Source of the DNA: Gemmatimonadota bacterium
GTDB lineage: Bacteria > Gemmatimonadota > Gemmatimonadetes > Gemmatimonadales > Gemmatimonadaceae
DNA length: 60,792 bases
Reading direction: 5' to 3'
Assembly: GCA_016871915.1 (NCBI GenBank)
Contig: VHBP01000007.1
Coordinates: 1 to 60,792, forward strand
How positions within the stretch are numbered: the first letter of the stretch is position 1; each line of letters opens with the position of its first letter. The notes beneath the pieces were generated by a model. The model was not told where the DNA came from. It made no database searches and was given only the letters and a program-made list of their open reading frames with translations. Shown piece by piece: positions 4,277-6,930 of the stretch. The position numbers were made by a program, and so were the translations under genes.

Positions 4277-5611
4277 TTACCCCTGCCCCGACTCCGGCTT
4301 CGCGGTCGGCGTCGCGACCTCATTGCCCTCCTCGGTCAACTCGTCCAGGATCGCGACGATACGGTCGGCCTCCTCCGGCGCGATGCCGGGGAGACGCAGG
4401 AAATCGTCACGATCGAGATCGATGATGTCGTTCAACGTGCGGTAGCCACCGGCCTCGAGCACCGCGACGGTGGCCGTCGCAAGCCCCTCGATGGCGGCGA
4501 GCGGGACGTCGGCCGCCTCATCGCCCGGCAGCGGGGCGAAGAGCGGCATCTCGCCGCCCCGCTCCATCCACTCGCGGCTCGAATACAGATCGATCTTCCA
4601 TTCGGTGAGCTCGGAGGCGAGTCGCACGTTCTGGCCGTTGCGCCCGATCGCCAGGGAGAGCTGATCCTCGTCGACGACCGCCTGGATGGTCTTGGTCGTG
4701 GCATCGCTGAAGACGCGTGCGACCTTGGCCGGGGCGAGCGCGAGCTTGGCAAAGCGCTCCGGATCGGCCGACCAAGGCACGATGTCGATGCGCTCCCCGC
4801 CCAGCTCCTGAACCACGGCCTGCACGCGGGCGCCCTTCAAGCCGACACACGCCCCCACTGGATCGATGCCATCATCCTTGGACACGACGGCGATCTTCGT
4901 GCGGCTCCCCACCTCACGCGAGGCCGCGCGGATCTCGACGATGCCCGACTGGATCTCCGGCACCTCGAGACGGAAGAGCGCCTGGACGAAGAGGGCATCG
5001 GCCCGGGAGAGGATGAGGCGCGGCCCCTTCGGCGTCTCCTCGATGCGCTTGAGCACCGCCCGGATCGGCTCGCCCTGCGTATAGGTCTCGCGATGGTTCT
5101 GCTCGCGATACGGGATGATCGCCTCGGCCTCGCGGAACTTGTTCAGCAGGAGCACGATCTTGCCACGCTCGATCTGCTGGATCTCCCCCGAGAGCAGGTC
5201 GCCCACACGCGACGAGAACTCGTCGCGGATCTTGGTGCGTTCCCCCTCGCGGACGCGCTGCACGATGCGCTGCTTGCACGCCTGCACGGCGGAGCGCCCG
5301 AACTCGTTGAAGTCGACCGGGATCTCCATGATGTCCCCGGCCTGATAGTCGGGGTCCTCATAGCGCGCCTCCTCGATGTCGATCTCGATGACCTCGTCAG
5401 TCACCTCCTCGACGACCTTCTTGAGGATCACGATCTTGATGTCGCCCACGGAATCATCGATCTCCACCTCGGCCTGTACCGTCGGGCCGTACTTCTTCCC
5501 GAGGGCGGCAAGGATGCCGTCCTTGAGGAGCTCATGGAGCTCGGTGCGATCGATCTGCTTGCTGTTCGCCAACTCGCGCAATGCCGCGAGGATCTCGGCC
5601 GATCCCGCCAT
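4277..5611 (-). CDS. nusA: Transcription termination/antitermination factor NusA
   Basis: RNA polymerase-associated factor that modulates pausing, intrinsic termination and antitermination. 444 residues: N-terminal RNAP-binding domain (about 1-125), S1 domain around residues 130-200 (GEIQQIERGKIVLLLNKFREAE), two KH domains with GLKGARVQAVVQELGGERIDIV and LAIGRNGQNVRLASEL, and a C-terminal extension ending in a helix-hairpin-helix (FLRLPGIAPEEADRIVAIL). The extra C-terminal region occurs in some phyla. It lies 24 bases after rimP in the same operon, whose leader carries a candidate attenuator that NusA itself could act on (see findings). Confidence 0.96.
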   Translation of the reverse strand: MAGSAEILAALRELANSKQIDRTELHELLKDGILAALGKKYGPTVQAEVEIDDSVGDIKIVILKKVVEEVTDEVIEIDIEEARYEDPDYQAGDIMEIPVDFNEFGRSAVQACKQRIVQRVREGERTKIRDEFSSRVGDLLSGEIQQIERGKIVLLLNKFREAEAIIPYREQNHRETYTQGEPIRAVLKRIEETPKGPRLILSRADALFVQALFRLEVPEIQSGIVEIRAASREVGSRTKIAVVSKDDGIDPVGACVGLKGARVQAVVQELGGERIDIVPWSADPERFAKLALAPAKVARVFSDATTKTIQAVVDEDQLSLAIGRNGQNVRLASELTEWKIDLYSSREWMERGGEMPLFAPLPGDEAADVPLAAIEGLATATVAVLEAGGYRTLNDIIDLDRDDFLRLPGIAPEEADRIVAILDELTEEGNEVATPTAKPESGQG

Positions 5612-5635: not shown

Positions 5636-6106
5636 TTACGGTTTCCAGTGGAACGCGAGCCGGGCGTCGGTGACGTCCGCCAGCGCGATCTCCCGCTCCT
5701 GCCCCTTCATGTCGCGGAGTCGGATGCGCTCCTGCCCCGCCTCCCCCTCCACCGCGACGATCTCGAACTCGTACCGCCCGTGGAGCGCCAGGGCGTTGAC
5801 ACTCGCCCGCCGCCCCACGAACCGCACCCAATCGGCCGCCGTCCGTAGCGGCCGCTCCATCCCCGGGGAGGAGACCTCGAGCACGTAGCGTGCCGAGATC
5901 AGCGTGGGCTCGGCATCGAGCCGGGCTTCGATCGCCCGGGACGCCCGCTCACAATCCCCGACCTGCACCTTCTGACGGTCCAAACGGTCGATCCGGATGT
6001 CAAGCACCTGTCGCCCCTTGGACCCTCCGCGCTTCAGCTCGACCAGTTCGAGCTCAAGCTTCGTAAGTTCTTCACTGACAAGCAGTTCGATTGCGTCGAC
6101 GGACAC
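5636..6106 (-). CDS. rimP: Ribosome maturation factor RimP
   Basis: 30S maturation factor, first gene of the nusA-infB operon; 156 residues. Seen: ELVELKRGG near the N terminus, LDIRIDRLD, DCERASRAIEARLD, YVLEVSSPGMERPL (the RimP signature) and a C-terminal SH3-like half. I place the start at a GTG with GAGG about eight bases upstream. An in-frame GTG 21 bases further up would fall directly on the U-tract of the leader terminator and looks less likely. Confidence 0.92.
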   Translation of the reverse strand: MSVDAIELLVSEELTKLELELVELKRGGSKGRQVLDIRIDRLDRQKVQVGDCERASRAIEARLDAEPTLISARYVLEVSSPGMERPLRTAADWVRFVGRRASVNALALHGRYEFEIVAVEGEAGQERIRLRDMKGQEREIALADVTDARLAFHWKP

Positions 6107-6127
6107 AGCTACGACCTCACAGAGCAC

Positions 6128-6158
6128 AAAAAAAGTGCGGGGAGACCTGCCCCCACAC
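6128..6158 (-). terminator. Intrinsic terminator / candidate leader attenuator before rimP
   Basis: On the minus strand GTGTGGGG (6158-6151) pairs with CCCCGCAC (6142-6135), an 8-bp stem with one G-U pair and an 8-base loop, followed directly by seven U residues (6134-6128). It could simply end the murA-pgeF transcript. But a good promoter lies upstream of it (6195-6223), so transcripts started there must pass this hairpin before reaching rimP. That makes an attenuation role plausible. Confidence 0.8.
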
Positions 6159-6194
6159 TCCGCAAACGGACCGGAATGTCTCCCAACTCTCCCA

Positions 6195-6223
6195 AAGGTA
6201 CGGATTTACGCGGGGACAGTCAA
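6195..6223 (-). promoter_or_regulatory. Sigma70-type promoter for the rimP-nusA operon
   Basis: TTGACT, a 17-base spacer, then TACCTT on the minus strand. The -35 box overlaps the pgeF stop codon. Predicted transcription starts near 6188, giving a leader of about 80 nt before the rimP start. It matches the other promoters seen in this window (TTGAC-N16/18-TANNNT). Confidence 0.7.
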
Positions 6224-6930
6224 GCAGAGCGGACGATGACCCCGATCTGGCGGCCGGCGTCGCCAGCCCGATGGGAGAAGAAGCGATCGTTGTCGCACTT
6301 GGTGCATTCGAGGTCGGCGGACCAGCGGCCAATACCGAGGGCCTTCGCCTGCTCGCCGAGGAGGGCGCGGAGGTCGACCTGCCGCGGGCGCTGGGTCTCG
6401 AGCCCGGTCAATTGCCGGTAGACCTCGGGGCCCACCTCATAACAGCGTCCGCAGATGGAAGGGCCGAAGTGAACCCGTAGCCCGGCGGGCGCATGCCCTG
6501 CCGCCTCGAGGGCGCGCACCGCCTCACCGAGGATCCCACCAGCGACCCCTCGCCACCCGGCATGCACCGCCCCGACCGGGCCGTCCTCATGGGCGAGGAA
6601 GATGGGGACGCAGTCGGCGATGGTGACGGCCAGGCCGCCGGCCCCGAAGAGGAGATGGCCGTCGGCACCCTGATGGCGGACCCAACCCTCCCAGGTCGGC
6701 TGGTGCCGCAGCACCTCAGTGCCGTGCACCTGCTTGGCCGAGGCGAGACGTGGGACTCCGGACTCGGCGAGCGCCCGTTGGAGATCGTGCCACCGGGCCG
6801 ACGATTCGGGTGCCACCCCCTGCTCGGGGAAGCCAAAGGTCCCGGCCTCACGCGTCGTGACGAAGACGGAGAGCCCGAGGTCGTCGAACCCGGGGATGGG
6901 GTGATGCGGAGGGAGCCCTGCGATCGGCAT
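6220..6930 (-). CDS. pgeF: PgeF/YfiH-family purine nucleoside phosphorylase (LACC1-type)
   Basis: 236 residues. The family (formerly called laccase-domain or polyphenol oxidase) includes zinc-dependent purine nucleoside phosphorylase/adenosine deaminases; YfiH/PgeF has also been linked to peptidoglycan editing. Seen: SAKQVHGTEVL, the metal-site Cys in VTIADCVPIFL and HAGWRGVAGG, then FGPSICGRCYEVGPEV. The gene follows murA after a 24-base gap, in keeping with a wall-related operon. It is followed by the rimP promoter and hairpin. Confidence 0.88.
   Translation of the reverse strand: MPIAGLPPHHPIPGFDDLGLSVFVTTREAGTFGFPEQGVAPESSARWHDLQRALAESGVPRLASAKQVHGTEVLRHQPTWEGWVRHQGADGHLLFGAGGLAVTIADCVPIFLAHEDGPVGAVHAGWRGVAGGILGEAVRALEAAGHAPAGLRVHFGPSICGRCYEVGPEVYRQLTGLETQRPRQVDLRALLGEQAKALGIGRWSADLECTKCDNDRFFSHRAGDAGRQIGVIVRSA

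Follow-up and report, generated by a model that had tools for sequence, protein, structure and literature searches.

NusA is a near-universal transcription factor, and to our knowledge the control of its level has been established in few species. The rimP-leader, which has a conserved GGGc...gCCC stem and occurs in the majority of species, is the most ubiquitous bacterial attenuator (Naville & Gautheret 2010, PMC2965389). The original description named NusA as the best regulator candidate and RimP as another possibility, without deciding between them, and work cited there found that NusA represses the rimP-nusA operon in E. coli (PMC2965389). In B. subtilis, NusA autoregulates through NusA-stimulated termination in its own leader; a review confirms this precedent (PMC12288461), which had been invoked when an attenuator was first predicted at the locus described here. 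Literature searches turned up no study of this leader in Gemmatimonadota.

The DNA analyzed here, termed the window, is a 60,792-nucleotide stretch of a Gemmatimonadota contig (VHBP01000007.1), which its close matches among named records situate near Gemmatimonas. It contains, with a probability that we put at about 0.66, a promoter-proximal intrinsic terminator that attenuates transcription of the rimP-nusA-(L7Ae)-infB-rbfA operon, is of the rimP-leader kind, and has NusA as its likely modulator.

Anatomy of the leader

By Pfam assignment, the genes of this region encode, in order, MurA-type, PgeF-type, RimP, NusA, L7Ae-like, IF2, and RbfA proteins. Read along the minus strand, the pgeF stop is followed by TTGACT-N17-TACCTT, a hairpin, a run of seven U residues, the Shine-Dalgarno sequence GAGG, and the rimP GTG. 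The features are as follows.

6220..6930, minus strand: pgeF (yfiH type, Cu-oxidase_4; PF02578), the neighbor upstream
6223-6218, minus strand: -35 hexamer TTGACT, from the sequence; TTGAC is kept in relatives
6200-6195, minus strand: -10 hexamer TACCTT with a 17-nt spacer, from the sequence; a promoter here beats shuffles in 115/118 leaders
6171..6186, minus strand: possible weak 5' hairpin UUGGGA-GACA-UUCCGG (RNAfold), at the genus level only and of uncertain function
6155..6179, minus strand: possible competing hairpin ACAUUCCG/CGGAGUGU, a candidate antiterminator that overlaps the base of the terminator stem, in the genus only
6134..6159, minus strand: terminator hairpin AGUGUGGGGG-CAGGUC-UCCCCGCACU, from its fold, its conservation in 107/107 assessable loci, and compensatory changes
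6128..6134, minus strand: terminator U tract of 7 T; the T run is kept in nearly all relatives
6118-6115, minus strand: rimP Shine-Dalgarno sequence GAGG, from the sequence
5636..6106, minus strand: rimP, with its GTG start at 6106 (PF02576 and PF17384 above cut-off)
4277..5611, minus strand: nusA (PF08529, KH_5, HHH_5), the likely regulated and regulating gene

The TGA inside the -35 hexamer is the stop codon of pgeF (6222-6220), and a transcription start placed from the -10 hexamer falls near 6188/6187. Positions 6159-6150 (AGUGUGGGGG) pair with 6143-6134 (UCCCCGCACU) to give a stem of 10 bp, including two G-U wobbles, which closes on the loop CAGGUC, and the hairpin has a folding energy of -16.0 kcal/mol. 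Between the U run and the rimP GTG (6106-6104) there are 21 nt. The sequence bears out the promoter, the seven-U tract, and the GTG of the original prediction; the hairpin is also present, but the stem that had been given as 8 bp reaches 10 bp once two end pairs are counted. An intrinsic terminator is thus located directly upstream of rimP in a rimP-nusA-infB operon, and from the sequence and its conservation, RNA from the predicted start would have to read through it to reach the operon.

As a lone site, this hairpin is statistically unremarkable. A generic scan of 12 kb returned 4 terminator-like sites, against 3.4 expected, and 4 sites in the whole 60.8 kb scored at least 28, against 0 or 1 in Markov sequence, with the nusA-leader hairpin having the longest T run among them. 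The case therefore rests on comparison across relatives, and the real evidence against chance is conservation. Of 200 genomes of the phylum, 161 contain the strict pattern GTGGGGN{3,12}CCCCRCNYTTTT, mostly as a single copy, and the window's own genome has one match only; the same pattern read backward, as a control, is present in 3. Among the strict-pattern sites with a listed nusA place, 108 of 118 are on the same strand as nusA and 110-703 nt before it.

Conservation across Gemmatimonadota

Loci for comparison were obtained by RimP and NusA searches that covered the genus, family, order, class, and phylum. Loci picked by the RimP or NusA protein alone numbered 108, from which one (L121) was excluded because too little sequence precedes nusA on its contig; a hairpin and U run precede rimP or nusA in all 107 assessable loci. 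A single expression fits 104 of these 107; the other three depart from it by a G-U pair or a broken U run (L108, L122, and L123). The core stem is GUGGGG/CCCCAC in most loci, GCGGGC/GCCCGC in much of family f2, and GUCGGG/CCCGAC in others, and the six core pairs are formed in all 45 distinct arm pairs. Changes on both sides of the stem affect the core (UA to CG, 11; GC to CG, 11 and 3) as well as the basal pairs (AU to GC, 13; UA to AU, 14). They total 52, whereas shuffles give 20 on average and never more than 35; the count is indicative only, because the shuffles keep relatedness in. An alignment of leaders for stem covariation had been proposed with the original prediction; it yields a stem that is kept phylum-wide and whose pairs change compensatorily.

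A sigma70-type promoter precedes the stem in 115 of 118 leaders, the best TTGACA/TATAAT-like site scoring above at least 95 of 100 dinucleotide shuffles. These predicted promoters mostly have TTGAC and a 17-nt spacer. In the window's family, the -10 hexamer ends about 30 nt ahead of the stem, and in 19 distinct leaders from other families, the stem starts 0-7 nt after the predicted +1. Many relatives have a predicted RNA that opens with the hairpin, as would suit a structure that guards the rimP-nusA mRNA from decay and is no terminator. We give this reading hardly any credence, since a run of 5-8 U is kept along with the stem in GC-rich genomes and a stabilizing hairpin needs no U run.

Spacing on the downstream side is also variable. 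The rimP AUG follows the terminator U run by 0-3 nt in L024, L027, L097, L099, and L101, where no Shine-Dalgarno sequence fits, so that ribosomes on read-through RNA would have to initiate immediately after the hairpin. In L109 and L114 (family f5), a second terminator-like hairpin with a U run lies just upstream of the rimP-leader hairpin, in tandem (GCCGCCCC..GGGGCGGC or GGCCGCTCCC..GGGGGCGGCC), an arrangement resembling the C-first, G-second tandem of gammaproteobacteria.

Across the leaders, no larger conserved structure or antiterminator was found: the hairpins upstream of the stem differ from genus to genus, and in 19 leaders the space before the stem is too small for one. In L014 and L053-L095, the predicted leader RNA opens with a variable GC-rich hairpin that immediately precedes the terminator hairpin. 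Such an upstream 5' hairpin occurs in most genera of the window's family and is weak in the window's own genus. For all long leaders of family f1, its mean folding z is -0.93, with half below -1; the z is about -0.2 in the window and near zero in the window's own genus, and for this last reason we claim no function for the family f1 hairpin.

It is distinctly unlikely that the window's genus has a classical terminator/antiterminator switch, possibly driven by a ligand or ribosome, in which ACAUUCCG:CGGAGUGU or GGGAGAC:GUCUCCC opens the base of the terminator. When the 86-nt leader is folded with RNAfold, the ACAUUCCG/CGGAGUGU helix together with a truncated stem is preferred, and AUUCCG and GGAGUG are retained genus-wide, but RNA ending at the U run folds to the full terminator. 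Moreover, GGGAGAC is absent in L005-L007 and L009, though GGUCUCCCC is retained; neither pairing is present in other genera, and the short leaders are too small for either. Both pairings were rejected as antiterminators for want of support outside the genus.

Leaders in genomes without rimP

The rimP gene is usually near-universal in bacteria. In 11 near-complete genomes of Gemmatimonadota, from at least two lineages, rimP is not detectable, and the promoter and hairpin are directly before nusA. Neither RimP_N nor RimP_C gave a match over the cut-off in any of the 11, whereas the same RimP_N model, as a control, detects RimP in 16 of 17 genomes of the same order, the window's included.

Eight of these genomes (G210, G156, G201, G200, G208, G226, G216, and G244; loci L164-L171), which are 90-97% complete, have the promoter and hairpin about 110-210 nt ahead of nusA. 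In six of the eight (L164, L166-L168, L170, and L171), pgeF and the leader are separated by an unrelated gene, for an Ig-like protein; in L165 and L169, the leader still follows pgeF. The Ig-like gene is small and lipoprotein-like, its identity having been assigned by eye from the translation. Because these eight loci were picked through a pattern match, they show what can happen and not how often. The remaining three genomes belong to genus g14 (G151, G029, and G222; L175-L177), whose members G159 and G240 do have RimP. Leaders of this genus with and without rimP align as one element, GGCAACTTGCG...GUGUCGGG...CCCGRC and a U run, and in L177 the gene upstream of the leader is not pgeF. Altogether, the upstream neighbor is other than pgeF in 7 of the 11 rimP-less genomes.

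From these sequences, several genera within one family of Gemmatimonadota appear to have lost rimP, and the genus labels imply at least two losses. In L172 and L173 (genus g41), RimP matches only about residues 5-97 of a 97-amino-acid open frame, which suggests that the C-terminal SH3 domain has been lost there.

Because the promoter and hairpin persist before nusA without rimP and without pgeF as a neighbor, the leader element follows nusA; its retention in all 11 genomes ties it to nusA rather than to rimP. This distribution also bears on whether the hairpin is merely the 3' terminator of murA-pgeF, with rimP-nusA read by leakage or from another promoter, which was the plain alternative raised alongside the original prediction. 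Operons do end in intrinsic terminators, and pgeF is the adjacent upstream gene in the window, as it is in most relatives, but a plain terminator of murA-pgeF is expected to depend on pgeF for its position, and the hairpin stays with nusA after rimP is lost or pgeF displaced. Where the Ig-like gene intervenes, or where the neighbor is another gene as in L177, promoter and hairpin are both still in place. In addition, 115 of the 118 leaders have their promoter-like site between the upstream gene and the hairpin, and no rimP promoter fits downstream, where the 21 nt after the hairpin include the Shine-Dalgarno sequence. We consider this alternative very improbable.

Probable attenuation and its possible regulator

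If the leader is an attenuator, RNA polymerase would start near 6188, and the hairpin would be transcribed about 30 nt further on. A substantial fraction of the complexes would then terminate in the U run and release a leader RNA of about 55-61 nt, and the remainder would continue into rimP-nusA. With NusA on the polymerase, more NusA would favor hairpin closure and termination and would thereby lower nusA expression. The hairpin may also insulate rimP-nusA from murA-pgeF read-through. The NusA-type attenuator of the original prediction stands as far as its layout is concerned, with promoter, hairpin, and U run found phylum-wide and staying with nusA after rimP loss or a change of pgeF; from this layout we infer termination, its regulation, and NusA as the effector.

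The architecture of the leaders restricts the kinds of regulation that can be considered. A stem 0-7 nt from the predicted +1 leaves no room for an aptamer, a leader peptide, or an antiterminator, which rules out models of these three kinds in those leaders and admits only a factor that acts on the hairpin. Taken together, the short leaders and the rearranged loci leave two options: attenuation that is fixed, or attenuation by a factor that works on the hairpin at the polymerase. NusA is a candidate because it works in this way and is encoded by the gene that stays behind the leader. Since the leader is kept before nusA in the rimP-less lineages, RimP is not a necessary regulator there, a comparative argument that is new.

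Terminators that require NusA are often weak, and the strength of the window's hairpin (-16 kcal/mol, with seven U) is a counterpoint to the NusA reading. A regulator other than NusA, such as the operon's own L7Ae-like protein or IF2, would be indistinguishable at the sequence level, as would a constitutive partial terminator. The latter, which would hold operon expression at a constant proportion of promoter firing in the absence of feedback, is in our view unlikely. Sequence conservation cannot tell regulated from fixed termination, and no conserved extra regulatory element is seen in the leaders, but feedback is the easier explanation for a terminator that has been kept on one operon throughout a phylum, at the gene for a termination factor, and feedback has been demonstrated in B. 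subtilis (PMC12288461).

The chances are about even that the Gemmatimonadota rimP-leader is a minimal nusA feedback element, consisting of a bare hairpin and U run at or just after +1, sensed only by polymerase-bound NusA and kept through rimP deletion and changes of the upstream gene. If so, it would answer the RimP-or-NusA question for the rimP-leader family, and at about 30 nt of RNA in some lineages, it would be one of the smallest attenuators.

Comparison with known systems

The window element is most likely a rimP-leader of the already known kind. It shares the general form of that family, a short terminator hairpin with a G-rich 5' arm, a C-rich 3' arm, a U run, and no visible antiterminator, and its arms agree with GGGc..gCCC and a U run, being GGGG/CCCC in the window and most relatives and, to the letter, GCGGGC/GCCCGC in a large part of family f2. 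The distance to rimP is 4-130 nt in described rimP-leaders (PMC2965389) and about 0-100 nt in most of the loci here. Unlike in the described family, most stems here are GUGGGG/CCCCAC, GGGC/GCCC being confined to some order-level relatives, and in some relatives rimP is gone and nusA is directly behind the hairpin.

RF01770, the tandem form of gammaproteobacteria, belongs to the same operon and likewise has a terminator before rimP. In E. coli, the tandem consists of AGCCCCG..CGGGGTTTTTT and then GGGCTTTAGGCCCTTTTTTT, whereas the window has a single terminator. The RF01770 covariance model (47-bit cut-off) had no match in the window (Rfam scan) or in its own genome, and a search of eight genomes returned weak matches in two distant genomes.

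As in the B. subtilis nusA attenuator, a promoter and a leader terminator are followed by a nusA-bearing operon. The B. subtilis leader is 180 nt long (PMC2965389), and that of the window is about 60 nt when counted through the U run; dependence on NusA was tested in B. subtilis, whereas the Gemmatimonadota leaders are known from sequence. An independent arrival at the B. subtilis layout, which the original prediction had said would be informative, is not supported, the rimP-leader kind being widespread. A shared kind is the simpler reading, because such leaders are known in the majority of species, in E. coli, and throughout Gemmatimonadota.
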